IMG/VR virus record: IMGVR_UViG_3300032308_002288
Span: 1-21,639 of that record
DNA: 21,639 nt
Reading direction: 5' to 3' (one strand)
Source of the DNA: a virus
The position numbers were made by a program, and so were the translations under genes. This document shows positions 5,201 to 21,241 of the stretch, piece by piece (positions within the stretch are counted from its first letter, which is position 1; the number at the start of each line of letters is the position of its first letter). Below the pieces are notes generated by a model. That model saw nothing but the letters and a program-made list of their open reading frames with translations. It did not search any database and was not told the origin of the DNA.

Positions 5201-5277
5201 AGCAGGCCCGCTCGCAGGGTGGGGCCATGCTGATGGCGCAGCAGTACGGCCAAGGCGGGGCCGCACCGCCTCAATAA
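2203..5277 (+). CDS. Portal-like protein precursor containing an intein
   Basis: The 1024-residue precursor would yield a 651-residue protein after removal of an intein at residues 48-420. The host part resembles a tailed-phage portal protein, the dodecameric ring at the capsid vertex through which DNA passes. Supporting segments are an N-terminal region followed by LDYLTYGNSF, a WDPY segment, a central YNEAIALDYVVPFRVI stretch, and a late GMPVELFNGTLTLQ segment leading into a long helix-rich part, as in portals of large phages. A CX2C pair at C505/C508 and another at C536/C539 look like a zinc ribbon, unusual for a portal. The C-terminal part (about residues 845-1024) is a Glu/Gln/Met-rich coiled-coil-like segment, then a Gly/Pro/Ala-rich linker, then a helical tail. 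The GTG at 2203 is the longest start; the ATG at 2260 (residue 20) is an alternative. Neither has a convincing Shine-Dalgarno sequence. Portal assignment is by pattern only. Confidence 0.75.
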   Translation: MSAGPTASPGYGNAPGRSNMADERFPDPFCDVASLSMPESIQTALRWCIVPGTPVELADLSLKAIEDVCPGDVVLTRGGTAERVLRYSVRNVAEDIVSLSFSGLGKRTPLRLTGNHNLWVIRAGSKKPSQIAVNLKDAEKIAAAEVRKGDYVATPLPIRAAVTAPKYDGWLIGMYLAEGCVCRAGDRVMRVRFTCGAGDADSGVLAKLVAELRDGTGQEAEIYTPPSRPDVRLITISDVEFPDWVAEHCPGLAKTKKLSSACLSWSDETILGVIGGLIDGDGNCSQTKKVFRDAAVWSASRTLLYQLQRLAQLAGLCPSLCEVGAKRGYGSYSSDVSYCLKFSKTDCQRLTPYSVKIQQAQRNLVGFIPAKGATGKSFVRDGYVFRRVTAAARASYTGPVHNFEVENDHSYIAGGVTVANCEYIMNANGVYRQAIDRVVSYFITDVEINDTGDKTIGQEEKEKYSVFLEDTLGIKNVLHTVALDYLTYGNSFTSLLLPFRRYLSCNNCRLEMPLEKVHNSTQCAFKWQDFQFHATCPNCKVTGVWRHIDRRSGDDKGVTVKRWSPHEIDILWDPYSTECQYVWKIPEDYRNQIKAGHLHYLKNASWEVIEAIKDGKNLMFDKGVLYQLKEDGLAGMRNRGWGISRVLTNFRQAWYVQILMRYNEAIALDYVVPFRVITPAPKGGDAASGDPVHSINLSSFSSRVQQMLRARRSDPARWNVLPFPVNYQALGGDASQLAPRDLIDQGQETLLKCIGMPVELFNGTLTLQAAPAALRLFEANWGHLPHNLNRFLNDLADNISRSMSWSPVSAKLTRVTHADDLNRQMAKLQLMQGQQISKTTGLKSVGLDYEEETKRMLEEEKIYAEEQQRMQAEMEQSQQMQAMSQPANMMAGVGDTGSGATGMPQGQPGAAPAGGGAPAPGQPPMLPGQAPSAVDQFLMQRQNSPSVPRTPEELQTQAQLIANDLLSKPESLKDSELIKLKRADATMHALVTSIIDDIRQQARSQGGAMLMAQQYGQGGAAPPQ
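2225..2252 (+). repeat. GC-rich perfect inverted repeat (9-bp stem) at the start of the portal gene
   Basis: CGCCCGGGT (2225-2233) is the exact reverse complement of ACCCGGGCG (2244-2252), with a 10-base loop. It lies between the two candidate start codons GTG 2203 and ATG 2260, ending seven bases before the ATG. There is no T tract, so it is not an intrinsic terminator. It could affect translation of the portal mRNA, or it may just be coding sequence. Confidence 0.5.
2344..3462 (+). other. Intein with LAGLIDADG homing endonuclease domain (373 aa) inside the portal gene
   Basis: Precursor residues 48-420 form an in-frame protein-splicing element. Block A is CIVPGTPV with Cys48 as the N-terminal splice residue. 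Block B is LTGNH with the expected T-x-x-H (T113, H116). Two LAGLIDADG-type motifs follow: LIGMYLAEG at 171-179 and VIGGLIDGDG at 273-282, with acidic residues E178 and D279/D281 as likely catalytic positions. Block F is VHNFEVENDHSYIAGG. Block G is VTVAN, followed by Cys421 as the first residue of the C-terminal extein. The usual penultimate His is replaced by Ala419. Splicing would join Trp47 to Cys421. By hand count, G+C is 40% at 2461-2520 and 45% at 2941-3000 inside the intein, against 70% at 2281-2340 and 62% at 3481-3540 outside, suggesting separate acquisition. Confidence 0.93.
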
Positions 5278-5278
5278 T

Positions 5279-6322
5279 ATGCGAGTAGGCATATACACGC
5301 ATTACGCCCACTGTGACCAAACCTATTTGTGCGTCAGGTTGGTTGATTTTCTGCGCTCCAAGGGCGTGGAATTCGACATCTACGCCGACAACCAGCCCGG
5401 GCGGCTGCAGATCCCGTACGATAGCGCTGTGTCGTACAAGAACGTGATTAAGTTCACCGACTGGGCTAAAAAGCAGTCTGCGATTATTTGGACCCATGTG
5501 CCCAAACTTGAGCAGATTAACTACGCCAACCGGCTCGGGAAGGTGACGGTACTCGCGCCGATGTGGCAGGAACTGGTACCGCCATTCCGCAAGGCTATGC
5601 AGCGGGTGGATCGGGTCGTGGCGCTGTCCGCGGAGTGCCTTGAACTCTACCGCGATGTGTATCATGTTAAATCAGCGACGTTTATTCCGTACGACGCTGG
5701 CATGCCGCCCACCCGTAAAGACGCCCGGGTAGACGCAAAAAATGTGCGCATTTTACTGCCGTGGTTCGACAGGAACGCGCGCTGTGCAAATAGCGAATTT
5801 TTAAGCGGACTGGCTTATTTATTCGAGCGGATGCCGGACGGCCAACTAACGGTTGCCATATCGTCCAGCCGATTCTCCCCCGCTATCGCCAAGTTTTTCC
5901 AGACTCTCGGGCAAAAAACGGGCGGCCGGGTTAAACTGCTGCGCAACGTACCGCTATCGAAACGCGCGGTGCTCTTCGCCGAGCATGATCTCACGCTGTA
6001 CCCAGCAGAGTGCGATAACTACGGCGTATGCGCCCTGACGTCTATCAATTGCGGCACGCCAGTCTTGTCGTTTGCTCTTTCACCGCAGTCTGATTTCGTG
6101 TATCAAGATGCCAATGGCGTGCTCATCAAAACAAAGACAGATTATGACGAAAATGGCGTGCCGCACGCCGTTCCAGATTACGAGCACCTGCTCGAAGCTT
6201 TGCAGTGCATGATTGCGGAGCCGTGGCATATTGACAATCTAAATAAACGCATAACCTATAACCTCGTTACTCGGCGCAAACTATTTGAGCAAGGATGGCA
6301 ATCAGTTCTGCAAATTGAGTAA
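5279..6322 (+). CDS. GT-B glycosyltransferase (GT4-like)
   Basis: The 347-residue protein looks like a GT-B glycosyltransferase, which transfers a sugar from an activated donor onto an acceptor. The N-terminus MRVGIYTHYAHC starts like the first Rossmann strand of an acceptor domain, and the DFLRSKGVEFDIYAD stretch fits the first helix-strand turn. The strongest signature is in the C-terminal half, PAECDNYGV around residues 242-250 followed by INCGTPVLSF. This matches the Glu-x7-Glu-like donor-binding region of Glycos_transf_1 proteins, though the second acidic position is not conserved in the standard form. Length is typical. The ATG lies one base after the portal stop codon with no strong binding site, so it is probably translated by coupling. 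The target could be a virion protein, phage DNA or a host surface glycan; nothing here distinguishes them. Confidence 0.75.
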   Translation: MRVGIYTHYAHCDQTYLCVRLVDFLRSKGVEFDIYADNQPGRLQIPYDSAVSYKNVIKFTDWAKKQSAIIWTHVPKLEQINYANRLGKVTVLAPMWQELVPPFRKAMQRVDRVVALSAECLELYRDVYHVKSATFIPYDAGMPPTRKDARVDAKNVRILLPWFDRNARCANSEFLSGLAYLFERMPDGQLTVAISSSRFSPAIAKFFQTLGQKTGGRVKLLRNVPLSKRAVLFAEHDLTLYPAECDNYGVCALTSINCGTPVLSFALSPQSDFVYQDANGVLIKTKTDYDENGVPHAVPDYEHLLEALQCMIAEPWHIDNLNKRITYNLVTRRKLFEQGWQSVLQIE

Positions 6323-6346
6323 CGCGGTGGCACACGGAGGTGCCCC

Positions 6347-7111
6347 ATGAAAAAAACAGAAGGCTGGTCCGTCGAAAAAACAATGACTTTCGCCCAGCAG
6401 CAGTACGAAAATAAGAAAACGTTTACTGGCGAACTGCTTTTTGACCACTGTGTCGGCGTGTCAAAGCAAGCCGAAACCATTGCGGCTCGGCTCTATCAGG
6501 ACGTGCGAGCCGACTTTATGCCGGACAGCGCCAAGGAAAGCGTGGCGGCCATTGTGCAGGCGGCGGTCTTACACGACGTCTTAAACGTCAGTGCCTGCGC
6601 ATTTGAGCAAATTGCGGAAACGGCAACGGTGCAAATTGCCGCTATGGTAGCCGACGTCAGCCGCGATTTTCGGCTGGTCGAGACCAGACGCGATATGGAG
6701 TTTCGCGGCCGGTTGAGTCAAAGTCCGGTAGGTTCTCAGGTTGTCGTAGCGGCTGACGTGATCTGTACGGCGCGGGATCTCTTGCGCGCCTTGGCTGATC
6801 GCGGCCTTGAGATGGTTCCGCGGGCTAAAAAAATTCTTGCGCAATTAGACGGGGACCTACTTGCACTACACGCCGCCAACCGGTATTACATCCTGCGGTT
6901 ATACGTCCACGCAGCCCGAAACATGCTGTCGGAAGTAAGCCAAAAAATCAAAGACTGCCGACAAAAAGCCAAGATGGACAAACTTGTGGCCCAGACAACC
7001 AAACGGCTACGCGAATCTGTTGAGGCGGAAAAAAAGTCTAAGGCCAAGATCAGTAAAAAGAAGGAGGTGCGGTATGCCAGAAAGCGAACTGCTGAACCAG
7101 ATTCTGAGTGA
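6347..7111 (+). CDS. HD-domain protein resembling the RelA/SpoT (p)ppGpp hydrolase domain
   Basis: The start is supported by GGAGGTG at 6336-6342, four bases before the ATG. Residues 13-160 follow the order of an RSH-type HD domain: AQQQYENKKTFTGELLFDH with His34, then AAVLHD with His76-Asp77, then VVVAADV with Asp137. These are the four expected metal ligands. The Glu-Asp pair that follows HD in active (p)ppGpp hydrolases (HDxxED) is replaced by Asn80-Val81. About residues 160-205 are helical. The last 50 residues are strongly basic (Lys/Arg-rich). The family normally cleaves the 3' pyrophosphate of (p)ppGpp; a phage copy could lower the host stringent alarmone. The missing ED pair makes that activity uncertain, and another nucleotide or a binding-only role is possible. 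The 3' end overlaps the next gene by 38 bases. Confidence 0.7.
   Translation: MKKTEGWSVEKTMTFAQQQYENKKTFTGELLFDHCVGVSKQAETIAARLYQDVRADFMPDSAKESVAAIVQAAVLHDVLNVSACAFEQIAETATVQIAAMVADVSRDFRLVETRRDMEFRGRLSQSPVGSQVVVAADVICTARDLLRALADRGLEMVPRAKKILAQLDGDLLALHAANRYYILRLYVHAARNMLSEVSQKIKDCRQKAKMDKLVAQTTKRLRESVEAEKKSKAKISKKKEVRYARKRTAEPDSE
7061..7068 (+). promoter_or_regulatory. Full-length Shine-Dalgarno AAGGAGGT setting the start at 7074
   Basis: AAGGAGGT lies five bases before ATG 7074 and inside the coding region of the upstream HD gene. It is the best ribosome binding site in the window. It shows that the downstream gene starts inside its neighbour rather than at any earlier in-frame codon. Confidence 0.85.
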
Positions 7112-7394
7112 CTATATCGACGCCAACCCGGACGTCGATAAAGACCCGTTGAACAATTTCTGCGTGTATATCGCCGGTTGGCTGGTCGATCATCCCGTTA
7201 TTGGCGTGGGGATGACCAGCAGCGGTATGGCCCTGCGGCTAGCTGACGGGCGTGAAATGACCCTGATCGTGACGCCTGAGATGACAAATCCGGCTACCGT
7301 GACGCCGCCGGTCAGCATCACCGGCAATTCTGGTAGTGGTGTAACCCGCGGCACACTCGGCGACTCCCCGAGCGTGGCTATTACCAGAGGCTAA
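7074..7394 (+). CDS. Small unrecognised protein (106 aa)
   Basis: The start is fixed by the strong AAGGAGGT at 7061-7068. The first 38 bases overlap the end of the HD gene in another frame. Residues 1-45 are acidic and helical-looking (SELLNQILSDYIDANPD). The middle (about 45-75) alternates hydrophobic and small residues as in a short beta-sheet (GMALRLADGREMTLIV). The last 30 residues are rich in Gly, Ser, Thr and Val and probably flexible. There is no membrane segment or known motif. It lies between two enzyme genes and is presumably co-expressed with them. Function unknown. Confidence 0.75.
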   Translation: MPESELLNQILSDYIDANPDVDKDPLNNFCVYIAGWLVDHPVIGVGMTSSGMALRLADGREMTLIVTPEMTNPATVTPPVSITGNSGSGVTRGTLGDSPSVAITRG

Positions 7395-7412
7395 TCCGCG
7401 CCCGCACGTTGG

Positions 7413-7418
7413 AAAGGA
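7413..7418 (+). promoter_or_regulatory. Shine-Dalgarno AAAGGA that decides the thymidylate kinase start
   Basis: AAAGGA lies five bases before GTG 7424. An in-frame TTG at 7409 would place this site inside the coding region and would add five residues not seen at the start of thymidylate kinases. Confidence 0.7.
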
Positions 7419-7423
7419 TTCCA

Positions 7424-8053
7424 GTGTTCGTCTGTTTTGAAGGTATTGACGGAGCCGGGAAAACGACACAGACCCGCATGCTGCATCAGCGGCTGCGGGC
7501 TGCCGGCATCGCGGCCGAACTTGTAGCCGACCCCGGGACCACCAAGATCGGCACGGCAATCCGGCAGATTTTGCTGCACAATGATGAGCCGATTTCCGCG
7601 GCGGCTCAAATGTTGTTATTTTCAGCCGCTCGCGCAGAACTGGCTGAATATATTCGCGCACGACTGGCCGAGGGTGTAGTCGTACTCTGTGACCGCTGGC
7701 TGCTGTCGACGCTGGTGTATCAGGGCGAGATCAACAATATCTCGACCGAGTTAATTCTCAAGATTTTTGAGGAGACGTCGGCTATACACCCGGACGTCTG
7801 TTTCTTGCTCGACATCTCGCCCGCAGCCGCCAAGGTTCGCATGGGCGCGCCCAGCGACAGATACGAGCGGCGGTGCATGGCTGATCGGCAGCGTATGCGC
7901 GCGGCTTATTTAGATCACGCTCAGCATCGTGCGCACGCCGCTTGTGTGCACGTCATCAGCGCAAACGACTCACCGCAGGCCACGCACGACACTGTGTACG
8001 CGCTGTTTTCTGCGGCAAGGACGGTGAAACTTAGTCTTACGGAGATGCCCTGA
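7424..8053 (+). CDS. tmk: Thymidylate kinase (dTMP kinase)
   Basis: The 209-residue protein should phosphorylate dTMP to dTDP with ATP, supplying dTTP for phage DNA synthesis. With the GTG start at 7424 it begins MFVCFEGIDGAGKTTQ, the characteristic thymidylate kinase N-terminus with its P-loop (G7 to T14, catalytic Lys13). The substrate-binding segment DPGTTKIG stands where REPGGT usually occurs, so the normal Arg-Glu is changed to Ala-Asp. The DR motif is at Asp90-Arg91 in CDRWLLSTLVYQG, which matches the family well. SDRYERR near residue 145 fits the LID region with an Arg. Length is as expected (about 205-215). It sits among virion genes rather than replication genes. The GTG start may limit its expression. 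I am confident of the family; the altered REP segment leaves nucleotide preference open. Confidence 0.92.
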   Translation: MFVCFEGIDGAGKTTQTRMLHQRLRAAGIAAELVADPGTTKIGTAIRQILLHNDEPISAAAQMLLFSAARAELAEYIRARLAEGVVVLCDRWLLSTLVYQGEINNISTELILKIFEETSAIHPDVCFLLDISPAAAKVRMGAPSDRYERRCMADRQRMRAAYLDHAQHRAHAACVHVISANDSPQATHDTVYALFSAARTVKLSLTEMP

Positions 8054-9160: not shown

Positions 9161-10093
9161 ATGTCAAATAAAAAAATCACCGAATTACCGGAAAAAATAA
9201 CACCCTCTGGCGCCGATATCATTCCTATCGTCGACGTGTCGCTCGCCCAGCCCACGACAAAACGCACAACTATCGGCGCGCTTATTGACCTTATTGGTTC
9301 TGGGCCCGCCGGTTCAAACGGACAAACTGGCGCGACCGGCGCAACTGGCGTACAAGGTATTCAAGGTACGCAAGGTCCCGTGGGCGCCACCGGCCCGCGT
9401 GGCGCAACGGGCGTACAAGGGCCCACGGGTGTTGCCGGATCTGTTGGCGCGACAGGTTTGCAGGGTTTAGCTGGGCAGACGGGTATGCAAGGCCCGAGAG
9501 GGACTCAGGGTCAGACCGGCCTCGCGGGCGCGACGGGCTTTCGCGGCGCGACCGGCGTGCAAGGCGCGACAGGTGTTGCTGGCGCAATTGGGCCGCAAGG
9601 CGCAACTGGCGTTGTCGGCGTCACCGGCGCAATTGGCCCCACCGGCGTTCAAGGTTTGACTGGAGCTACAGGGCCGCAGGGGCCCGCCGGGTCAGGCGTC
9701 ATTATTAAAGGAATTGCCGCCCAGTGGCCGCCGGCGCTAAATCCTGTTGTAGGTGACATGTGGTTAGTTTCAACACCTATTCCGGGCGGTTTTCCCGTCG
9801 GTACCCAATCTGGTGACGGGTTTGTCTGGTCTGGTTCTGGCTGGATCAACGTTGGGCCCGTTCGTGGGCCGCAGGGAGTTACCGGCCCGCAGGGGCCATC
9901 TGGTGCAGTCGGCGTTCAGGGCGCTACCGGGCCGGCAGGTGTCAACGCGTCGGGTGTGACTGTCGCGGCGACAAAACAAATAACAGTTTCAAACACTCTG
10001 ACGTTATCGTCGGCTGACGGCGCGCCAGTTAATTTTGGCGGTGGCGGTACAGTCGTTTACACAAATTCCATCATTGACGGCGGCGCGTACTAA
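9161..10093 (+). CDS. Collagen-like phage fibre protein
   Basis: The 310-residue protein is built like a trimeric phage fibre. Residues 1-46 ([21 protein letters not shown]) match the N-terminal segment often found in phage fibres that begin with ITELP and then a Gly-Ala-Asp turn. Residues about 48-178 are an almost unbroken run of some 40 Gly-X-Y triplets rich in Gly-Ala-Thr, Gly-Val-Gln and Gly-Pro-Gln. A compact globular insert follows (about 180-235, with GDMWLVSTP and GSGWINVGP, the form that often separates collagen stretches in phage adhesins). A shorter second triplet run (about 236-260) leads to a beta-rich C-terminal segment. The triplets should form a collagen triple helix extending from the particle. 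Bacterial-type collagen lacks hydroxyproline, and Thr-rich triplets fit that. Only weak ribosome binding (AGGGCG) precedes the ATG. Confidence 0.9.
9302..9697 (+). repeat. Tandem Gly-X-Y coding repeats (collagen-like)
   Basis: The DNA is a degenerate nine-base-periodic array, with units such as GGCGCAACTGGC and GGCGTACAAGG recurring many times with small changes. The Gly codons fall every third codon throughout. Recombination or slippage here would change fibre length in whole triplets. The array also leaves several other frames open by chance. Confidence 0.85.
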
Positions 10094-10109: not shown

Positions 10110-12704
10110 ATGGCAAACATCATTAAACACAAACGCAGCGCAGTTTCGGGCGCGGTGCCAGCCGCGGATAGCCTGTCTGCCGGCGAGTTAGCTATCAATA
10201 CCGCCGACGGAAAACTTTTCACACGTAAAGCTGACGGCACAGTCATTGAGTTAACAAAAGCCACAGCAATCGATGGCGGTGAAATTGCCTACGACAGCCT
10301 GCTCAACGGCTTACAAGCTTTTTGGCTTTTTGATAACACTGTGGGCCACATTCCAGACGTATCCGACAACAATCACCCGTTGTTTGTAGCGGTGTCCGCG
10401 ACCGCGGCAGAAATCAGTGTTCAAAATAGGGGCTTGACGCTAGACCGCGCAAATTTTTTATACGCAGCGCATGCTTTTTCCACGCGCCGCACAGTGGCGT
10501 TTTGGTTAAAAATTTACGACGCGCCGCAAACAGATAAAACAATTTTGACGTTTGGTCCCTTTGGCGCAACAAGCGGTGTCGAATATTTAGCCCTAAACGA
10601 TGACAGAGAGTTGCGGTGGTATGGTTCGCCGCACACTAACGTCACGGTAGTTTCTACCGCAATTCCACTAAATGCTTGGACACACGTAACGCTTGTACGT
10701 GACGCGGTTTCAGACGCGGGTACGCTCAAGATATACATAAATGGCGCGCTGCAGTCATCAATCAGTGCCGCGCCAACTAATCCGCCGTCTAACGCGTCAG
10801 ACGTTGTAACTTTCGGCTCATTTGATCCAGCCGTCCGCGTAAGTTTTGACTGCGCTGGCATCTGGAACCGCGCAATCACACCCGCCGAAGTTGCTGCTTT
10901 GTTTAATGGCGGTGGCGATGCTTATTCGTTGCCGGCCGTTCCGGCAGTACCGGTAGATCCGGCAGCTTTCGTCAACGTCTTTGCAACTGCGCCCATTACA
11001 TCTTTGACGGCCTCGGTGGCTGGTTCTTCTGGAACCCTTTTTCCAGCATTTGATCCCGACATTTATGACTACGGCGTACTAACAAACTCGACAACGCTGG
11101 GCAGTACAGCTACCTACACCCTTACGGTTAACGGCACTCCGACAACCGATAGTTCTTTTGTCGGAAAAACAATTAAAGTGTCGTTCGGCGAAACAGCGTA
11201 TTACATTCGACTGTTGCCGTCGGACATGCCGTTAGGCGCCGTGGTTACCCAGCCGCAAGAAGGTTACGTGCCGGGTTACTACATCACCACGAGCCGCCGC
11301 GACATCAACGTCGGCAACTACAACATCGTGTATGACGAGCGCGGGGTTCCGGTGTGGTATGTGCAAAACGCAGGCACGCCGCACTTAGCGCAACACGGAA
11401 ATGATCGCAACAAAGTCGGCGTCAGTCGTAACGGCACCGGCCAGCGCTACTCAATGACGATCACAGATGACGCAATTGAAACGAAAGCGTTCAATTTTCT
11501 ACCCACTGTGCGGAACGGTAATACATATCAATACAACTTTGGCAATCACGAATTTTTAGAGATCACAAGTCCGCCGTCTGCGCGCGGCAACGTTATTTAC
11601 AACACGTTTGTAACGCAACCCGCCGCTGGTTCTCCGGCGATTACCGACAAAGCGTACGGCGTTTATATTCAAGAGCAGACGCCGCAAAACACGATTGGCT
11701 GGGAGTGGTGGACGAGTGATCGTTTTGACCAGACCGCGCTTGCTCGTAACGCGTCGTTCTTCCACATGAATTCTGTAGATATTCATCCCGTCACTGGCGA
11801 CATGCTTTTAAGCTGCCGGCAGTGTTCGGCGATTGTTTGCGTTGATCGCGCGACTAAAGACGTTAAGTGGGTGATTCAAGGCGCGTCGCAGCCGTGGGGT
11901 AACATCATTCAAACAGCGAACCAGTACACGCTTGATAACGCCAAGTGGCTCACGCTGGAAGACGAGCCAGAGTTAGAGGGTTATCAATACCTTGGCCCAG
12001 AAGGGCAGCATCATGCGCGCTGGGCGACGAATGTTAATCCGCTCACGCCCGGCAATCAAGTAATAGCTATTTTTGACAATCAGGCCGGCTTTTTCCCGGG
12101 CAGCACCAATTCGCCTAAAACGGTGAGCGCGCTGACACAGACCGGTACAACGGTAACTGGTACGGCCGCAGCGCACGGATTTACGACCGGGGCATACGTC
12201 CAAGTTGTCGGCGCTAATGAGTCGGTGTTTAACGGTATTTTTTCTGTTACGGTCGTAGACGCAAACACGTTTACTTACACAGTAACCGAAAGCGGATCAG
12301 CCACCGCGACAGGCACAATTACAGCCACGCGGGCTTTGACCTACTGGCCACACAGCGCCAATTCGCCGGCAGCGCGAGGCGTAATTTACGAAATCGACCT
12401 GACGAACAACAAAGCCATACACCGTGCCAGTGTGTTTGCGCCGAACGGGACGTCTGGTTATCTCGGTAGTTATCAAATCATGCGGCACGATAGCGGCGAA
12501 TATAGCCACGTGCTAAATTTTACGCAGCAGCATCCGCCGCTCGTGGAATACGGCGACTCGGGTGACGGCGCTTCTCCCACAGAAATCATTTTCGCGGTAG
12601 ACTTTCCCGGCGATCTTTACAGGATCACAAAAGTCTCAAAAGACTATTTTGATATTGATTACTTGCGCGCTACTGCTGGGTTACCCATAACCGTTGTATC
12701 CTAA
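10110..12704 (+). CDS. Adhesin with LamG-like and arylsulfotransferase-like domains (copy 1)
   Basis: Start at ATG 10110, with AGGA at 10095-10098 and no better upstream start; 864 residues. Residues 1-50 (LSAGELAINTADGKLF, then GTVIEL) are a short phage-fibre anchor module. About residues 65-274 form a LamG/concanavalin-type beta-sandwich (GLQAFWLFD, then NAWTHVTLVRD, then LKIYINGAL). About 290-370 resemble a small beta-sandwich with PAFDPDIYDYGV. About 370-864 resemble the six-bladed propeller of aryl-sulfate sulfotransferases (ASST, Arylsulfotran family). Candidate catalytic residues are His480 (NHEF), His552 and Arg570 (HMNSVDIHP to SCR, 18 residues apart) and His634 (GQHHARW). In the E. 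coli enzyme His356 and Arg374 are also 18 apart and His436 carries the sulfate. A beta module of about 90 residues interrupts the propeller. Family assignment is good; activity is inferred. Confidence 0.8.
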   Translation: MANIIKHKRSAVSGAVPAADSLSAGELAINTADGKLFTRKADGTVIELTKATAIDGGEIAYDSLLNGLQAFWLFDNTVGHIPDVSDNNHPLFVAVSATAAEISVQNRGLTLDRANFLYAAHAFSTRRTVAFWLKIYDAPQTDKTILTFGPFGATSGVEYLALNDDRELRWYGSPHTNVTVVSTAIPLNAWTHVTLVRDAVSDAGTLKIYINGALQSSISAAPTNPPSNASDVVTFGSFDPAVRVSFDCAGIWNRAITPAEVAALFNGGGDAYSLPAVPAVPVDPAAFVNVFATAPITSLTASVAGSSGTLFPAFDPDIYDYGVLTNSTTLGSTATYTLTVNGTPTTDSSFVGKTIKVSFGETAYYIRLLPSDMPLGAVVTQPQEGYVPGYYITTSRRDINVGNYNIVYDERGVPVWYVQNAGTPHLAQHGNDRNKVGVSRNGTGQRYSMTITDDAIETKAFNFLPTVRNGNTYQYNFGNHEFLEITSPPSARGNVIYNTFVTQPAAGSPAITDKAYGVYIQEQTPQNTIGWEWWTSDRFDQTALARNASFFHMNSVDIHPVTGDMLLSCRQCSAIVCVDRATKDVKWVIQGASQPWGNIIQTANQYTLDNAKWLTLEDEPELEGYQYLGPEGQHHARWATNVNPLTPGNQVIAIFDNQAGFFPGSTNSPKTVSALTQTGTTVTGTAAAHGFTTGAYVQVVGANESVFNGIFSVTVVDANTFTYTVTESGSATATGTITATRALTYWPHSANSPAARGVIYEIDLTNNKAIHRASVFAPNGTSGYLGSYQIMRHDSGEYSHVLNFTQQHPPLVEYGDSGDGASPTEIIFAVDFPGDLYRITKVSKDYFDIDYLRATAGLPITVVS
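12084..12368 (+). other. Extra beta domain inserted in the ASST-like propeller of copy 1
   Basis: Residues about 659-753 lie between DNQ and AARGVIYEIDLTN. In the paralogue the same flanking motifs (DNQ and ARGVVYEIDLTN) are only six residues apart. The inserted part contains TTVTGTAAAHGFTTGAYV, ESVFNGIFSV and NTFTYTVTESG, a small beta-rich module I have seen as a recurrent unit in phage structural proteins. A short Pro/Ser-rich linker precedes it. Confidence 0.75.
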
Positions 12705-12719
12705 TTTTATTAGCACATC

Positions 12720-15700
12720 ATGGCATCAAACATTCAATTTAAGCGCGGTACCGCTGCTGCGCTGTACGCTCTCAATCCCGTTCTGCTTCGCGGCGAGCCG
12801 GGGCTAGAGGTAGATACGAACAAAATTAAATACGGCAACGGTGTAACCCCGTGGCGAAATCTGCCTTACGCCAATCCGGCGCTTGAGGTGGTAGACGGCG
12901 GTGAGTTTACAGCCGGCGCCGTGCCCGCCGAGCCGGATATTTTTAGCCCGCCCACGATCGCTGGTTTAAAGCTATGGCTGGATGCGGATAACGCGGATTA
13001 CGTGCACCGTGTAAATAACCGCGTATCGGTATGGGAAGATGCGTCTGAATCCGGCGCCAAGTTTGTGCAGTCAAGCAAATCGTCGCGACCGCAAGCCACT
13101 AACCAGCTTGCCAGCAAAGATGTTGTGACGTTTGATGGCGATAACGACGTCATGCTTAGTAAGTTTGATCTGCCTGCCGAATTTACGTTATTAGTCGCTC
13201 TCCGGCGTCGCGGTCGAAGCACCAGCGGCAAACTAATCACCGCCTATACGACCGACAGCGCAACAGAACTCGTGTTATGCGGCACAGAAACCGGCACCAC
13301 ATTTGGCGTGCAGTTTGACGGTGATTATCTGGTGCCGCAGTCGGTTGATAATATGCAACCGGTTGTGTACACGCTGCAATTCAGCGCAGCCGGTATTTCT
13401 ACGCGCGCGAACGGTTCAGACACGCAATACGCGAACAGTATTTCTGTCTCGGGTCTGACGCATTTAGCGCTCGGCGGTGATCGCGTTGATTTTGCTTCTG
13501 ACAACTATAGCGGCGACATTGCCGAAGTCGTTTTATACGACAGCGTATTGTCGGCTGCAGATTTAATTGACGCTGAGAACTACATGTTGGCTCGCTGGGG
13601 CGTGGTTAGCGTTAATCACCCGCTGCTCACCGGGATGAGAGCGTTCTGGCGTCTGAACGAAGAATCTGGCTCGCGTTTAGGTATTACAGCGCTGCAAGTT
13701 CCGCTGACGCAGGTTGGCACGGTCGGCTTTTCTGCTGGCGTCATTAACAACGCGGCTGAATTGCCCGGCGGCAATAACTACCTGCAAGCGCCAAGCTCTT
13801 TTGCGCTCGCCGGCTCGTTTTCTGTTTCGGCGTGGTTTAAAGCTGCGTCGATGTCCGGCGGGCGTGCTGCGCTCGTGCAGAACTGGGCTGCTGGAAATGC
13901 GTCTGGGCAGCTAGAGATCGGTTTTGGTGACACTGGTTTAGATACCAATGCCGTATTTGGTCGCATCGCTACTTCTGCCGCCACCTACTCTGTCGTTGCG
14001 CCAGATTTGACTGCTAATTTCTGGCACCACGTTGTGCTGGTATACAGCGCCAGCGACAACACGCTTACGTTGTACATCAATGGGTTGCAGGCCGCGCAGG
14101 TAGCCACGAGTGGTTCTTTCAGTGCAGGAAACATTCCGCTGCGCGTTGGAATTGGCGATCAAACGGCTACGCAAAATAATCTTGCCTGCTTGGTTGATCA
14201 GCTTGGCGTCTGGGACCGCGTTTTGTCGCTGCAAGACGTTCAGATGCTCTACAACTACGAACTCGGCAAAGAAAATTTCACTGTCGACTTGGATGGCAAC
14301 AACGTTTCGCTGCTCCTACACATGGACAAGCCGGCGAACGCGCTAGCGCTCAACGCAGTCGACCCCTATATCAATAACGCTACGCTGCTGCTCCATTTCA
14401 ACGGGACTAACGGCAGCAAAAACATTGTTGATTCTTCTCCGCAAGACGGTGACGTCACAGTTGTTGGCGACATTCAAATTAGCACTACTCAAAGTAAATT
14501 TGGCGGCGCTAGTCTCAGGTGCCCTGATAGTTACAGCGACTATCTGGATGGCTTTGCGGACGTAGATCTGTCTACTGGTAGCTGGACTGTAGAGTGCTGG
14601 TTTTTAACCAACGGGCCAAACATCGGTAATAACCGGACTGTGCTTAGCGCCGGGTATCAAGATTATCCAAATCGGTGGATTATAGATATCTCTGTTAACG
14701 CTCTCGGTCTTTTGCCCCGTATTTACGGCGTTGGAAACAGCATTTACGCCGGCGGCGAACCCCCCAACAACGCCGGCGGCGGCGCGACACCTACGCCGTA
14801 TACCTACGGCACGTGGGCGCATGTCGCTTGGGTAAACGATTCAGCCGCTGATGAATTCGCTATGTATGTAAACGGTGTCCGGGTATACACTCGCGACGCG
14901 TTTAATCTACCAAAATACAATACGATTCAAATTGGCCAACAAGCGTCGGTGTTCGGCTCAGAAGAGTTCTATATTGACGAATTGCGCGTGCTGAATATCG
15001 CTGTATACACAGCTAACTTCAGCCCGCCGACAGCGCCATTTGGTAATTCGTTGCTGCCAGTGGCCGAGTTTATCGACACATCAAAGCATAACCACGCGGT
15101 GACACCGGCGGGTAACGCGCAACTTAGGTTTGAAAATAGCAAGTACGGTAACGCTAGCGGCGCTTTCGCGGCTGATGGGCATTGCGAACTAGAGATGGCG
15201 CCAGAGTTTGCGTTCGACGATGGCGATTTTACTGTTGAGTTCTGGGGCAAACTGAACTACGTCCAGTATTCTGCGGTGTTCTCTACGGCGTCCAGTGCGC
15301 AGGAACCGGGTACCTACATTATCGGTTTCCGTGACGACGCGAACATGTTTGGGTTTTGCTACGACATAGACAATTTTACGTTTATTGCAGCAAATATCTC
15401 AGCATATTACGACATGTGGACGCACTACGCGTTTGTGCGGCTTGACGGCGTGCTGAAGATGTATGTCAACGGCGTTGAAGCGGCATCCGCAACGACGGCT
15501 ATGAATTTAGACGGCGGCAGCCAGACAACCGCCGTGATCGGCCGCCGATGGACAAATGAAGACGAGCATTACCTTAACGGATTGCTTGACGACTTCAGAA
15601 TCACCAAGGGCGTTGCCCGGTACGCGGCCGAGTTTACCCCGCCTCCCCGTGCGCTCCCTGATCCGGTTATTCCGGCGCCGCCCCCGCCGCAAAACGACGC

Positions 15701-18470
15701 GCTGCCCGCCGAGTACGTTACACTACTGCTTCATATGGATGGCGCAGATGCCAGCACTACTTTTGTTGATAATTCGTATTTGCAGCATACTGTGACTGCC
15801 GAAGGCTCCGCGGCTATTAGCACAGCCCAGAGCAAGTTTGGCGGGGCGAGCGCGTACTTTGATGGAAACGCGTATCTCACCGTACCGCCTGAAAATTTAA
15901 CGCTGTCAGAAGATAATTGGACAGTAGAGATGTGGTTCTATCCGACAACGAATAGCGGATATATGGCGCTTTTTTCTCACAACATATGTGGAACGCAGCT
16001 GTTCGGTTACGAGATCACGCTGGACTTTGGCGGCTGGCAACCCGGCCGGCATGTGCGTGTATTTTTCGGCGACGGACCAAATGTTGGTTATGGCCCCGGC
16101 CACTCCAATCTTATGTTTCCGATACCAGACGAAAACGCCGACAATAAATGGACACATCTTGCAGTTACTAGAGCCGGCCAGTCAGTACGTTGCTTCTGGA
16201 ATGGAGTGCAAATTGGTCCCACAGCAACATCGAATCTTGCTGTTAACCCGCTAACCGGAGTCGACTGTGACGTGACAATTGGCGGAAGATTCTGCACTTC
16301 TCCGGGCTCTCTCGACGCCGGTTTTCAAGGGTACATCGACGATCTGCGCATCACGCCGGGCGTCGCGCGCTACACGGAAAACTTTACACTGCCCACAACG
16401 CCGTTCCCGAGCCCGTTTACACCTAACCTAACAGCGTCTCTCTTGCTGCACTTTGACGGCGAAAACGATAGTCCGGATTTTGCCGACAGCAGCCAGAACT
16501 CGCTGCAAGTGACAAGTAATAATGGCGCGGTTATTAGCACCGCGCAGAGCAAGTTCGGCGGAGCGAGCGGGTACTTTTTAGCCGGCAGTGGCAGTTACCT
16601 GTCGATTAATGCCAGCGATGCATTTGATTTTGACTCTGGCGACTTTTGCATAGAGGCTTGGATCAAATTGCAGACCGGAGGCAAGAGCATCTGCTCTGGC
16701 AATGCCATTGGCGACTATATGTTTGCCACGGGCGTATATGGTGCTGGCGACATCGGATTCGGCCGCAACGGATTAACGTGGGATTTGTTGGCAAGCAATC
16801 CCGGACTCACGTCGGAATGGAATCACGTTGCCGTCGCGAGGTCCGGCACAACGCTTCGCCTTTTCTGCAACGGCGTAGTCGTAGCGACGGGCAGCGGCAA
16901 TTCATTAGCGTACAACGTGCAAGATACCCTGTGGATTGGGGCGAGAGTAGACAGCGGCCCGGCTGAGTTCTTCAACGGCTATATCGACGAATTTCGCATT
17001 GTCAAAGGTAGTGCCGTCTACACCCGCAACTTCACGCCCCCGACCGCGCCGCTCAGCGCCACATCCGAAGTCACACCCACAGATGTCGCTGGTTGTGATC
17101 TGTGGCTCGACTCTACCGCTGAAATCGGCACGCTTAATGGCTCGATCACGGTGTGGCCCGACAAGAGCGGCAATACACGTCCAGCTACACCCGCTGACTA
17201 TGCGCCGGCGCCGACGTTGGCTGTTGGCGAAGGACTTGCCGGGCAGAATGTTGTGCGTTTCAGCGGCGACCCGAATGTGCTTGACGTGGCATACGAGTTT
17301 AATCTCAAGAATTCGTCTGGGTTTGTAGTACTTAAACAGCCAACGCCTTTGAATGCGCCACCCGGTTTTCAAAGAATTCTGGCGTTTCAGCCAACTACGG
17401 GAATCGACGCGCAGCAAAATGATGGTTTGGCGCTGGTGTTTAATAACTACACCACTGACGGCGTAGAGTTGTATTCCAACGGCGACCCCCCGATTGGTCA
17501 GCACGCTATGCCGCTGCCTGCTGATTGGACGCTGCTCGCGTACACAATTGATAATTCCGGCAATCTCTCTCTGCGCGTAAATGGCGAAGAAGTTGACACC
17601 GGCGTCAATGCAAGCATGGCGCAAACTGCTGGCGGCAATCTTTATATTGGTCACGGCGGCACGTTCGCCATCGACGAAGCCCTTCACGGCGACATCGCAG
17701 AGGTTGTAATTTTTGATCATGCGCTGGGCGACGCGGCGCTGATTGGACTAGAGCGCGGCTTACTGGCGCGTTGTTTGCCGCCCACGCCACCGCCGCCGCC
17801 CCCGCCGCCATCATACGACGGGCCATCGGCGCTTCTCCTGCACTTTGACGGCGAAAACAATAGCCCGGATTTTGCCGACAGTGGCCAGAACTCGCTGCAA
17901 GTGACAAGTAATAATGGCGCGGTTATTAGCACCGCGCAGAGCAAGTTCGGCGGAGCGAGCGGGTATTTTGCCGGCGGCTCGTGGCTGACTGCGCCGGCTT
18001 CGGCGGACTTCGCTTACGGGACGGGCGACTTCACCATTGAGATGTGGATGTACTTCGACGGCGCGAACATAGCTTCAGCGATACAAGTGCTATACGCCCA
18101 GAGCCAGTCTGGAAGCAATTACTGTGTTATCGCTCTTTTCTACGGATCTGTGGTGTTTCTTTATGGCTACGGTAACCCCGCAAATTACGTGTACGGGGTG
18201 TCCGGGTCTTCGGTGACCGCAAACGCGTGGCACCATGTCGCTGTGTGTCGCCTTAACGGGGTGTTTAAAGTGTATGTAAACGGCGTGAGCGGGGTTCCGG
18301 TTACAGACGCATTTGATTTTGACAACACGACCCTTGAGCCGACTATTGGATCATACGGACATAACCAGGGCTACAATTTTACCGGTTACATTGATGAACT
18401 GCGTGTCATTAAGGGTTACGCGGCTTACCCTGCAAACTTTACACCCCTAACAACTCCTTTTAACCCGTAA
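12720..18470 (+). CDS. Giant multi-LamG lectin-like adhesin (1916 aa)
   Basis: The first 58 residues (FKRGTAAALYALNPVLLRGE, then NGVTPWRNLPY) resemble the N-terminal domain of the Bordetella phage major tropism determinant (Mtd) and related fibres. The rest is a chain of concanavalin/LamG-type beta-sandwiches at about residues 77-294, 305-516, 550-777, 529-540 plus 778-980 (split by the previous one), 998-1233, 1239-1450, 1456-1687 and 1703-1916. Most carry LLLHFDG or LLLHMDG, ISTAQSKFGGAS, a WTHVAW-type strand, YVNGV and a final IDELRV plus YTxNFTPP edge strand. Domains 1 and 7 are a second type beginning GLKLWLDA / GCDLWLDS and ending GDIAEVVIFD. Proline linkers (PPPPPPP near residue 1695) join some domains. 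Such domains often bind glycans, so receptor binding is likely but ligands are unknown. The ATG has no Shine-Dalgarno sequence. Confidence 0.88.
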   Translation: MASNIQFKRGTAAALYALNPVLLRGEPGLEVDTNKIKYGNGVTPWRNLPYANPALEVVDGGEFTAGAVPAEPDIFSPPTIAGLKLWLDADNADYVHRVNNRVSVWEDASESGAKFVQSSKSSRPQATNQLASKDVVTFDGDNDVMLSKFDLPAEFTLLVALRRRGRSTSGKLITAYTTDSATELVLCGTETGTTFGVQFDGDYLVPQSVDNMQPVVYTLQFSAAGISTRANGSDTQYANSISVSGLTHLALGGDRVDFASDNYSGDIAEVVLYDSVLSAADLIDAENYMLARWGVVSVNHPLLTGMRAFWRLNEESGSRLGITALQVPLTQVGTVGFSAGVINNAAELPGGNNYLQAPSSFALAGSFSVSAWFKAASMSGGRAALVQNWAAGNASGQLEIGFGDTGLDTNAVFGRIATSAATYSVVAPDLTANFWHHVVLVYSASDNTLTLYINGLQAAQVATSGSFSAGNIPLRVGIGDQTATQNNLACLVDQLGVWDRVLSLQDVQMLYNYELGKENFTVDLDGNNVSLLLHMDKPANALALNAVDPYINNATLLLHFNGTNGSKNIVDSSPQDGDVTVVGDIQISTTQSKFGGASLRCPDSYSDYLDGFADVDLSTGSWTVECWFLTNGPNIGNNRTVLSAGYQDYPNRWIIDISVNALGLLPRIYGVGNSIYAGGEPPNNAGGGATPTPYTYGTWAHVAWVNDSAADEFAMYVNGVRVYTRDAFNLPKYNTIQIGQQASVFGSEEFYIDELRVLNIAVYTANFSPPTAPFGNSLLPVAEFIDTSKHNHAVTPAGNAQLRFENSKYGNASGAFAADGHCELEMAPEFAFDDGDFTVEFWGKLNYVQYSAVFSTASSAQEPGTYIIGFRDDANMFGFCYDIDNFTFIAANISAYYDMWTHYAFVRLDGVLKMYVNGVEAASATTAMNLDGGSQTTAVIGRRWTNEDEHYLNGLLDDFRITKGVARYAAEFTPPPRALPDPVIPAPPPPQNDALPAEYVTLLLHMDGADASTTFVDNSYLQHTVTAEGSAAISTAQSKFGGASAYFDGNAYLTVPPENLTLSEDNWTVEMWFYPTTNSGYMALFSHNICGTQLFGYEITLDFGGWQPGRHVRVFFGDGPNVGYGPGHSNLMFPIPDENADNKWTHLAVTRAGQSVRCFWNGVQIGPTATSNLAVNPLTGVDCDVTIGGRFCTSPGSLDAGFQGYIDDLRITPGVARYTENFTLPTTPFPSPFTPNLTASLLLHFDGENDSPDFADSSQNSLQVTSNNGAVISTAQSKFGGASGYFLAGSGSYLSINASDAFDFDSGDFCIEAWIKLQTGGKSICSGNAIGDYMFATGVYGAGDIGFGRNGLTWDLLASNPGLTSEWNHVAVARSGTTLRLFCNGVVVATGSGNSLAYNVQDTLWIGARVDSGPAEFFNGYIDEFRIVKGSAVYTRNFTPPTAPLSATSEVTPTDVAGCDLWLDSTAEIGTLNGSITVWPDKSGNTRPATPADYAPAPTLAVGEGLAGQNVVRFSGDPNVLDVAYEFNLKNSSGFVVLKQPTPLNAPPGFQRILAFQPTTGIDAQQNDGLALVFNNYTTDGVELYSNGDPPIGQHAMPLPADWTLLAYTIDNSGNLSLRVNGEEVDTGVNASMAQTAGGNLYIGHGGTFAIDEALHGDIAEVVIFDHALGDAALIGLERGLLARCLPPTPPPPPPPPSYDGPSALLLHFDGENNSPDFADSGQNSLQVTSNNGAVISTAQSKFGGASGYFAGGSWLTAPASADFAYGTGDFTIEMWMYFDGANIASAIQVLYAQSQSGSNYCVIALFYGSVVFLYGYGNPANYVYGVSGSSVTANAWHHVAVCRLNGVFKVYVNGVSGVPVTDAFDFDNTTLEPTIGSYGHNQGYNFTGYIDELRVIKGYAAYPANFTPLTTPFNP
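14352..15050 (+). other. LamG domain apparently nested inside another LamG domain
   Basis: Residue 529 begins VSLLLHMDKPANAL, the first strand of a LamG unit, but the next residues start a complete second unit (ATLLLHFNG). After that unit ends (FSPPTAPFGNS, residue 777) the sequence resumes as LPVAEFIDTSKHNHAVTPAG, the usual second segment of a LamG unit, without its own LLLHFDG strand. The simplest reading is one domain inserted into a loop of another. Confidence 0.6.
16446..16577 (+). repeat. Near-identical 132-bp direct repeat, copy 1 (LamG coding)
   Basis: This stretch aligns without gaps to 17838-17969, 1392 bases downstream. By eye there are about five mismatches, and 16492-16573 is identical over 82 bases to 17884-17965. 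It encodes LHFDGENxSPDFADS through KFGGASGYF of two LamG domains. Sequences outside it diverge quickly. Confidence 0.9.
17838..17969 (+). repeat. Near-identical 132-bp direct repeat, copy 2 (LamG coding)
   Basis: Second copy of the 16446-16577 repeat, in the last LamG domain of the same protein. The identity includes synonymous third positions, so it reflects recent duplication or gene conversion rather than protein constraint alone. More divergent relatives of the same motif occur near 14490 and 15815. Confidence 0.9.
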
Positions 18471-18476
18471 TTAACT

Positions 18477-20777
18477 ATGCCACCTATTGAAATTAGAGTT
18501 CGTCGCGGAACGGCGAGTTATCTTGCTGACCAAAACGCTGTTCTGGCTGCGGGCGAACCCTGCCTTGAAATTGATACTGGCAAGATCAAGTACGGTGACG
18601 GCGTCACGCCGTGGAATCAATTAACGTACGCCGTTACTGGCGACGAACTGCCCGGCACGAATAACGAAGTCACCGGCACAGACGGGTTTGCGGCAGGTGG
18701 TTCAGATAATCTTGCGAGCGGTACAGCCGCTGCAACACTGGCTGGTAAAAATAATACAGCTAGCGCCGCGCAGGCAGCAACGCTCGGCGGTAACGCTAAC
18801 ACCGCTGCCGGCGTTAATGCTGTTACGCTCGGCGGTAACGCAAATACAGCGAACGGTTTAAATAGCATTGCTGGCGGCAAAAACGCTGTTACTACAAAAG
18901 ACGCTCAATTTGCTTTGTCGGCCGGAAGCTTTTTTGTTCCCGGCGACGCGCAATTCTCTATTTACAACTTACGCGCAGCGACCGTAAACGATGTGCCAAC
19001 ACGCATGTACATCAACGGTACGACCGGCAATTTAACTTTGACGCCGGGCGCTGCGTGGGCATTTGAAGTCAAAGTGTCGGCATACGATGTTTCCGCAACC
19101 ACAGCCGGCGCGTGGACTATTCGCGGCAGCATTTATCGCGACTACGCAAATAACGTCAGCCTTTCCGGCGCGCCAGTAGTTGAATCTATTTCCGACTCGT
19201 GGCCCGCAGGCTCCGGTGTCGCGGTGTCTGCAGACGCTGTAAATAAAGCACTGGCTGTTACCGTAACCGGCGCTACCGCGCGTGAAATACAGTGGGTAGC
19301 CACAGTTTTGTCGACCGAGCTAATCTCGCCAGTGCAGCTAGAGTCGGACATGTTCGTGGAGCTTACTGCCAACGAAACGATTACCGACTTGGCGGTTTCA
19401 GTAGACGGAAACAGCATGCAGCCGGCTTTTGATCCGACCATCTACGATTACGTCGTGTGGTCGGATACTGATTTTTATAGCTCGTCAGAACGCAACTATT
19501 CTGTAACGATCAACAACGGCGATCCAGTTACCGGCACTGCGACTGTTAATAAAGCTTTGCGCGTCAAGCTAGGCCCGACAAGTTACTTTATTCGAATTCT
19601 TCCCAGCGATTTTCCAGCGCTGCCGACAATCGTTACAAAAACAAATCAGTACGTGCCCGGTTATTATTTAGCTGCGTGTACGCAAGCGATTGGGCCGTAC
19701 ATGGTGGTATACAACTCTAACGGCGTGCCGGTCTGGTACACATACAACGATGACTCGTTGTGTGAAGTTATCAGTCTGCACGCCGGTTGGGACACTAACA
19801 AACTGATTACTAACGGCAGCACGCACAACTGCGATCGATGGGATATCCATATTGGGCTGAATGAGTTGACTGCAAAACCGTATACGATGATTAATCCAAA
19901 CGGCAAAGGCAATAACGAAACGTGGGATATTCACGAGTCGCACGCCATCAAGGGGCCGGCAAATCGTAAGGGCAACATTATTTATGCAGCCTATACCGCT
20001 GTCGGCTTCTATATTCAAGAACAGAACCCTCAAAATCAAATCGTGTGGGAGTGGTGGACAGAGGATTATTTTGGTAATCGGTGGTCAGAGCTTTATCACA
20101 TCAACTCTATAGATGTGCATCCAATAACCGGAAACATTGTCGTCAGTTGCAGGCATAACAGCGCCGTATTCGCCATTGACTATGCAACAAAAGAAGTAAT
20201 CTGGATTATCGAGGGCGCAGTAAATTGCCACGGCGGCGGTTCTTTGTGGGGCGCGCGTATTCCGAACATGACGCAAAACACAAAGCTGCTCGTACTACAG
20301 GGCGAGCCAAGCCTATCGGGGAGTCAGTATGTGGGCCCAGACGCGCAACATGACGCCCGCTGGCATGTTGATGTTCCGCCGCTCACCCCCGGCAACGATA
20401 TTGTTTCTATCTCTGACAACCAAACATGTTCCGCGCGACCCGCCCGCGGCGTCGTGTACGAAATAGACCTTACAAACTCCTATGCAATTAACAGAATGCA
20501 AGTGGAGTCGCCCTACGGCAGTACTGGCTGCTGCGGGTCGTTTACGCTCCTGAAAGAGAACAATACAACCTACTCCGGCACAATGCTGTTAAACTCCGAA
20601 AACCCTAATACGGTAGAATTTAACTTGTCGTCGGCGGGTGTAAATCAGGGCGTCGTATTTGAAATGAACCTGCTGGGCTCGTGGTGGTATCGAGTTATCA
20701 AGGTTCGACCCGATTTCTTTGACTTGGATTACTTGCGTACAACTGCCGGGCGCATTCCAACCATTATTGGCGATTGA
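18477..20777 (+). CDS. Adhesin with Mtd-like anchor, beta-roll stalk and arylsulfotransferase-like domain (copy 2)
   Basis: The 766-residue protein starts six bases after the LamG giant, with no Shine-Dalgarno sequence. Residues 1-50 (RVRRGTASYLADQNAVLAAG, then YGDGVTPWNQLTY) are an Mtd-type anchor closely resembling the start of its upstream neighbour. Residues about 66-135 are 15-residue repeats (ATLGGNANTAAGVNA type) like the YadA head beta-roll. About 140-285 is a phage fibre beta domain (GDAQFSIYNLRAATVNDVPTR, then GAWTIRGSIYRD). About 300-385 contains PAFDPTIYDYVV, and 390-766 is an ASST-like propeller homologous to the gene at 10110. Candidate catalytic residues are His486 (DIHESH), His541 and Arg559 (YHINSIDVHP to SCR, again 18 apart) and His625 (AQHDARW). 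It lacks the inserted beta module of copy 1. Family well supported; enzyme activity inferred. Confidence 0.82.
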   Translation: MPPIEIRVRRGTASYLADQNAVLAAGEPCLEIDTGKIKYGDGVTPWNQLTYAVTGDELPGTNNEVTGTDGFAAGGSDNLASGTAAATLAGKNNTASAAQAATLGGNANTAAGVNAVTLGGNANTANGLNSIAGGKNAVTTKDAQFALSAGSFFVPGDAQFSIYNLRAATVNDVPTRMYINGTTGNLTLTPGAAWAFEVKVSAYDVSATTAGAWTIRGSIYRDYANNVSLSGAPVVESISDSWPAGSGVAVSADAVNKALAVTVTGATAREIQWVATVLSTELISPVQLESDMFVELTANETITDLAVSVDGNSMQPAFDPTIYDYVVWSDTDFYSSSERNYSVTINNGDPVTGTATVNKALRVKLGPTSYFIRILPSDFPALPTIVTKTNQYVPGYYLAACTQAIGPYMVVYNSNGVPVWYTYNDDSLCEVISLHAGWDTNKLITNGSTHNCDRWDIHIGLNELTAKPYTMINPNGKGNNETWDIHESHAIKGPANRKGNIIYAAYTAVGFYIQEQNPQNQIVWEWWTEDYFGNRWSELYHINSIDVHPITGNIVVSCRHNSAVFAIDYATKEVIWIIEGAVNCHGGGSLWGARIPNMTQNTKLLVLQGEPSLSGSQYVGPDAQHDARWHVDVPPLTPGNDIVSISDNQTCSARPARGVVYEIDLTNSYAINRMQVESPYGSTGCCGSFTLLKENNTTYSGTMLLNSENPNTVEFNLSSAGVNQGVVFEMNLLGSWWYRVIKVRPDFFDLDYLRTTAGRIPTIIGD
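18732..18866 (+). repeat. Three tandem 45-bp units coding YadA-like beta-roll repeats
   Basis: Units at 18732-18776, 18777-18821 and 18822-18866 each encode a 15-residue repeat of the form ATLGGNANTAAGVNA. The second and third units share ACGCTCGGCGGTAACGC exactly. A degenerate unit precedes them and another follows. Such repeats form trimeric left-handed beta-rolls in YadA-type heads. Confidence 0.85.
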
Positions 20778-21197: not shown

Positions 21198-21241
21198 ACC
21201 CGCCGGGCCTCTCAACGATGCTCACTCGGCGGGTCTTTTTT
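21198..21241 (+). terminator. Rho-independent terminator after the gene at 20829
   Basis: ACCCGCCG (21198-21205) pairs perfectly with CGGCGGGT (21227-21234) around a 21-base loop. C and then six T residues (21236-21241) follow. It starts 25 bases after the TGA of the preceding gene, and the next gene starts 30 bases after it. Confidence 0.85.

Follow-up and report, generated by a model that had tools for sequence, protein, structure and literature searches.

Whether a phage can carry sulfate-transferring enzymes on its tail is the question raised by two adhesin genes in a 21,639-base virus record of an uncultured phage (IMG/VR record IMGVR_UViG_3300032308_002288), the whole of which is the window analysed here. 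The original prediction held that both proteins begin with a phage-fibre anchor and end in paralogous arylsulfotransferase (ASST)-like domains with an intact catalytic set, possibly active at the host surface. The two genes were present where they had been placed, at 10110 (gpA, 864 aa) and at 18477 (gpB, 766 aa). The features of the region are as follows.

9161..10093, + strand: collagen-like fibre protein, upstream neighbour of the adhesins (Pfam Collagen, 82.8 bits; PHROG tail protein/tail fibre matches)
10110..12704, + strand: gpA, 864-aa adhesin with a tail-fibre-type N-terminus, a LamG domain and a C-terminal ASST domain (ATG at 10110)
10110..10277, + strand: gpA residues 1-56, segment common to long-tail-fibre distal subunits (phrog_1699, 5.8e-10, and others)
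10479..10895, + strand: gpA LamG domain, residues 124-262 (PF13385, 63.2 bits)
10962..12701, + strand: gpA ASST region, residues 285-864, N-terminal sandwich and propeller (PF05935, 42.3 bits; alignment)
11547..11549, + strand: gpA His480, equivalent to E. coli ASST His252 (joint alignment)
11763..11771, + strand: gpA His552 and Asn554, equivalent to His356 and Asn358 of E. coli ASST (profile search of PDB sequences; joint alignment)
11817..11819, + strand: gpA Arg570, equivalent to E. coli ASST Arg374 (profile search of PDB sequences; joint alignment)
12009..12011, + strand: gpA His634, equivalent to E. coli ASST His436, the sulfated nucleophile (profile search of PDB sequences; joint alignment)
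12099..12341, + strand: extra module within the gpA propeller, residues 664-744, missing in gpB (alignment; phrog_9998, 2.8e-11)
12720..18470, + strand: 1916-aa protein between gpA and gpB, with an Mtd_N domain and seven LamG domains (Pfam)
18477..20777, + strand: gpB, 766-aa adhesin with Mtd_N, beta-roll-like repeats and a C-terminal ASST domain (ATG at 18477)
18492..18608, + strand: gpB Mtd N-terminal domain, residues 6-44 (PF18454, 36.9 bits)
18663..18899, + strand: gpB segment of GGxxNTA-type repeats, residues 63-141, beta-roll-like (weak: PF21300 under its cut-off; UspA1 3ntn, E 0.054)
19344..20774, + strand: gpB ASST domain, residues 290-766 (PF05935, 35.8 bits; model pLDDT 87; Z 31.5 to Cpz4 and 26.3 to E. 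coli ASST)
19932..19934, + strand: gpB His486, equivalent to E. coli ASST His252 (joint alignment)
20097..20105, + strand: gpB His541 and Asn543, equivalent to His356 and Asn358 of E. coli ASST (profile search of PDB sequences; joint alignment)
20151..20153, + strand: gpB Arg559, equivalent to E. coli ASST Arg374 (profile search of PDB sequences; joint alignment)
20349..20351, + strand: gpB His625, equivalent to E. coli ASST His436 (profile search of PDB sequences; joint alignment)

The N-termini of both proteins matched known tail fibres and adhesins in Pfam and PHROG, gpB through its Mtd_N domain and gpA through a segment of long-tail-fibre distal subunits, in line with the fibre-type anchors proposed for them. 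It is these N-terminal domain matches that suggest docking of gpA and gpB on the virion. The two genes adjoin collagen fibre and LamG genes, and judging by domain content the collagen fibre, gpA, the LamG protein and gpB look like an adhesin cluster. According to the alignment, the gpA propeller contains an insert of about 80 residues (664-744) which gpB does not have. Relatives of the 1916-aa LamG protein in other contigs varied in length and in the matching of their repeats, so the repeats may be gained and lost.

Several further elements of the record were observed outside this cluster. Positions 2203-5277 encode a 1024-aa protein, portal-like by inspection only, in which an intein, with Hint and LAGLIDADG matches, occupies about residues 48-420; the counterpart gene of the 198-kb relative (L005) has no such intein. 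Genes for a glycosyltransferase-like protein (weak), an HD-domain protein (weak) and thymidylate kinase lie at 5279-8053, between the portal-like gene and the fibre genes, which is an unusual place for metabolic genes. An Rfam match to the abiF RNA was obtained at 21199-21234 (44.6 bits, cut-off 37). The match falls on a stem-loop rich in G+C with a run of T behind it, in sequence terms resembling an intrinsic terminator, and the next gene encodes a thioredoxin with a possible signal peptide. The presence of an Abi system at this site was rejected because of these two features.

The C-terminal domains of gpA and gpB were 39% identical (BLASTP, E 8e-77) and are by this comparison paralogues, as had been proposed. 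Both scored above the Pfam gathering score of 24.2 bits for PF05935 (Arylsulfotrans), with 42.3 bits for gpA and 35.8 bits for gpB; gpA also passed the PF14269 cut-off, and the PF05935 cut-off was exceeded in all eight related records (8/8). Phmmer searches of the PDB with the single gpA or gpB sequence returned nothing useful. A profile of nine phage sequences (hmmsearch) matched only three distinct PDB sequences, namely two of Streptomyces Cpz4 (E 2e-4) and that of E. coli ASST (3elq, E 0.086, weak alone). The 3elq alignment placed the phage HxNS, SxR and QH motifs on His356, Asn358, Arg374 and His436. The same motifs were covered when the phage profile was compared with a bacterial ASST profile in hhalign (96.9% probability, E 1.5e-10).

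The predicted fold was consistent with this assignment. The gpA model, which included the insert, was poor (pLDDT 59) and still ranked ASST and Cpz4 first (Z 14.2); the fold comparison was moved to a model of the gpB ASST domain (pLDDT 87, pTM 0.89), which is predicted to fold by itself. The original prediction had named, as the outcome contrary to it, that the closest structural match would be a propeller family that lacks sulfotransferase chemistry. Instead, the top eight PDB entries for the gpB model were all sulfotransferases (Cpz4 and E. coli ASST). The model matched Cpz4 with Z 31.5 (rmsd 2.6 A, 315 residues) and E. coli ASST with Z 25.4-26.3, covering both the sandwich and the propeller; its residues 1-460 were superposed on residues 15-570 of 3elq with Z 26.3 and an rmsd of 4.7 A over 364 residues. 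The order of parts in the gpB model, a beta-sandwich at the N-terminus and then a beta-propeller, is thus that of 3elq. Foldseek, which the original prediction had proposed for this purpose, gave an E value of 2e-13 for ASST versus 1.5e-6 for the next family, and the best propeller outside the sulfotransferases was LRP6 (Z 20.3). In the model, successive strands each begin at or beside one of the three active-site histidines, a placement that would be expected of residues turned towards a propeller funnel. Among the predicted viral structures of BFVD, generic low-TM propeller-type matches came out on top (best 1.8e-6, query TM 0.37) and no ASST-type adhesin was found.

Published work places His252, His356, Asn358, Arg374 and Thr501 in the active site of E. 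coli ASST, where His436 is the nucleophile that becomes sulfated (PMC13426309). The residues proposed as its counterparts, His480, His552, Arg570 and His634 in gpA and His486, His541, Arg559 and His625 in gpB, were all found at those positions, and in both proteins the second His and the Arg were 18 residues apart. Their correspondence to E. coli His252, His356, Arg374 and His436 was borne out by the 3elq profile alignment and by an alignment that joined 11 phage sequences with 16 bacterial ones, in which the first His of gpA and gpB aligned with the conserved H(E/D) of bacterial ASSTs. The columns of His252, His356, Asn358 and His436 were identical in 27/27 sequences, and the Arg374 column held Arg in 25/27, the two exceptions being bacterial Lys. 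Across the phage set the equivalents of all five residues were invariant. Only nine of the 477 columns were identical in all 27 sequences and four of those nine were among the six published active-site columns, an overlap with a hypergeometric P of about 9e-7, which is only indicative because the bacterial rows were collected by homology. Eight of the 11 histidines in the gpB domain varied, and only the three active-site ones were invariant across the 11 phage and 16 bacterial sequences. By these alignments, the active-site match is more than chance. The alignment was poorly constrained around the position of Thr501, where the phages had Gly; Gly was also present in one bacterial group, so Thr501 is probably not a family-wide requirement. 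The assignment of gpA and gpB to the ASST family and the intactness of their catalytic set, as first proposed, are strongly supported by Pfam, profile comparison, fold and conservation.

A search of virus databases, suggested along with the original prediction, found related adhesins in seven other virus contigs. These contigs, of 205, 198, 152, 73, 30, 25.5 and 6 kb, encoded homologues of gpA or gpB, as did one MAG contig; the proteins of the 30-kb and 205-kb contigs were identical as printed. Two ASST adhesins were encoded in each of four contigs (205, 198, 73 and 25.5 kb). The 152-kb contig encoded a 1034-aa protein with ASST at the N-terminus followed by LamG, and here the active site was kept as well. 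The MAG contig (L015, 7.9 kb), found in a scan of bacterial genomes, carried a gpA orthologue adjoining a relative of the LamG protein and was taken to be a binned phage fragment. In the tree, which contained a small sample of bacterial ASSTs, the phage sequences formed one clade (100/100) on a long branch of 1.9 changes per column. The dN/dS values between orthologues were 0.05-0.17, which indicates purifying selection. The 198-kb relative encoded a family A DNA polymerase, a UvsX-like recombinase and a helicase, which identify it as a genuine large phage; its polymerase was about 25% identical or less in the best listed records, and by this measure the phage is only distantly related to cultured ones. 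In the same relative, the family A DNA polymerase is fused to a uracil-DNA glycosylase domain (L063 16012-19176, - strand). The relatives gave no match to the T4-type capsid (PF07068).

The phage ASST domains had no match in the 50,697 deposited phage records of INPHARED (tblastn), a search in which the LamG protein, used as a control query, retrieved 410 records. A bacterial ASST profile found no relative in the viral contigs. Bacterial ASST queries matched only Salmonella and E. coli records in INPHARED, either Salmonella enterica sequences of great length (98-691 kb) or small contigs that lack annotation and bear a phage label; these matches were read as host DNA and rejected as phage ASSTs. 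Records such as OR845375, OR851116, AGRM01000002 and AFYI01000004 resemble Salmonella or E. coli chromosomal DNA with bacterial ASST genes, and chromosome-like entries of this kind in a phage collection are a contamination caveat when phage ASSTs are counted. No description of a phage tail sulfotransferase was found in the open-access literature searched. The database and literature searches thus agree with the statement, made at the outset, that no such phage entry mechanism had been described.

Homology, fold, conserved active-site residues, purifying selection and an adhesin-type architecture are the demonstrated elements on which a working model of gpA and gpB can be drawn. Both would be virion adhesins with their N-termini docked on the tail, and their C-terminal domains would be functional PAPS-independent sulfotransferases with the ASST fold. 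On contact with the host surface, a sulfate ester would give up its sulfuryl group to the last His (His634 in gpA, His625 in gpB), which would become a sulfo-histidine while the remaining His, Asn and Arg residues keep the group in place. Water or a different hydroxyl would then accept the group. In this way the enzyme would strip sulfate from surface glycans or phenolic groups, or shift it, so that the tail could recognise its receptor or cross the surface layer. That an enzyme sits on the tip is plausible. We lean, by a narrow measure, towards gpA and gpB being tail-borne PAPS-independent sulfotransferases that edit host-surface sulfate. The broader proposition, that a group of uncultured large phages enters its host with the help of active PAPS-independent sulfotransferases which tip two paralogous adhesins, work through a sulfo-histidine and shift or strip off host-surface sulfate, we consider evenly balanced. 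Of the original prediction, the ASST assignment and the catalytic residues have stood; the tip position, catalytic activity, substrate, virion attachment and entry role are what we infer. Known ASSTs need aryl sulfate donors (PMC13426309) and the host surface is not known to offer any, which counts against surface editing; the Gly aligned with Thr501 in the phage sequences may also count against it, though one bacterial group has the same Gly. The substrate may have changed along the long phage branch.

The main rival is a catalytically silent sulfate lectin. The gpA and gpB domains could be receptor-binding proteins derived from ASST whose former active site only binds its ligands, sulfated glycans or aryl sulfates, and leaves the sulfate where it is. 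Lectins are often derived from enzymes, the ASST domains sit on adhesins beside lectin-like LamG domains, and the conserved His/Asn/Arg pocket would bind sulfate anyway. However, a pure lectin would not need the nucleophile together with all of the binding residues, and these were retained in every phage homologue, at identities down to 31-44% and also where the architecture differs. That loss of the site is possible is shown by a bacterial paralogue (second ORF of L050), which reads HYIGANS, SLGG and QYD at the corresponding motifs. The lectin is disfavoured for these reasons, and we regard it as unlikely, at something like one chance among four. Less probable again is that gpA and gpB are active sulfotransferases with a natural role other than receptor editing, for example on soluble phenolic sulfates, other virion proteins or the lysing cell. 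In favour of this alternative, the ASSTs described take numerous small phenols and no natural substrate has been assigned to them (PMC13426309), but the fusion to virion-attachment domains and the clustering with collagen and LamG genes point to work outside the cell at the tail tip. A generic beta-propeller with a chance His/Arg match is very improbable and for practical purposes excluded: propellers often serve as binding scaffolds, and scores of about Z 20 are attained by unrelated ones, but this reading is largely refuted by the sulfotransferases lying 5 to 11 Z units above all other propellers, by the Pfam scores above cut-off, by the hhalign match to bacterial ASSTs and by the selective invariance of the active-site residues.

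Virion enzymes known to clear the way to a receptor are mostly depolymerases and deacetylases, and a review of them makes no mention of sulfate chemistry (PMC5380687). If the editing of host-surface sulfate by gpA and gpB is true, sulfate would join the surface modifications on which phages act, sulfated glycans or phenolic groups would be indicated on the host envelope, and a class of phage entry enzyme not described before would be added. A receptor-modifying tail enzyme with a chemistry unreported for phages in the open-access literature searched is plausible. No natural substrate is known for ASSTs (PMC13426309), and a phage ASST might bear on what these enzymes act on in nature.

Compared with known systems, the best fold match to the gpB domain is Cpz4, a PAPS-independent sulfotransferase of caprazamycin synthesis in Streptomyces (PDB 9kf4, 9kf6; 18% identity). 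It has the HxNS and SxR motifs in common with the phage domains, but differs in being a single biosynthetic enzyme without fusion to a phage tail domain. E. coli ASST (PDB 3elq, 3ets, 3ett), which is periplasmic, resembles the phage domains in its N-terminal beta-sandwich and propeller, in five equivalent residues and in the spacing of 18 within the middle His-Arg pair, and differs in overall sequence (about 15% identity) and in Thr501, which is not kept in the phages. It is a free-standing secreted homodimer (PMC13426309), whereas the phage ASST domains are parts of adhesins. Mtd-type phage adhesins have the Mtd N-terminal domain (PF18454) in common with gpB and the LamG protein; their C-terminal domain has a C-type lectin fold, in contrast to the ASST propeller of gpB. 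The nearest functional analogue is the deacetylase tailspike of phage G7C, a precedent for editing a receptor glycan without cutting it: infection depends on this tailspike although the O-chain stays whole (PMC10743462). G7C gp63.1 and receptor-binding proteins with SGNH domains follow the logic proposed here, a tail enzyme that edits a glycan substituent while the chain stays uncut (PMC10743462, PMC13123978). They differ in fold and chemistry, gp63.1 being an SGNH hydrolase that hydrolyses acetyl esters, while the phage ASST is a propeller with predicted sulfuryl transfer.
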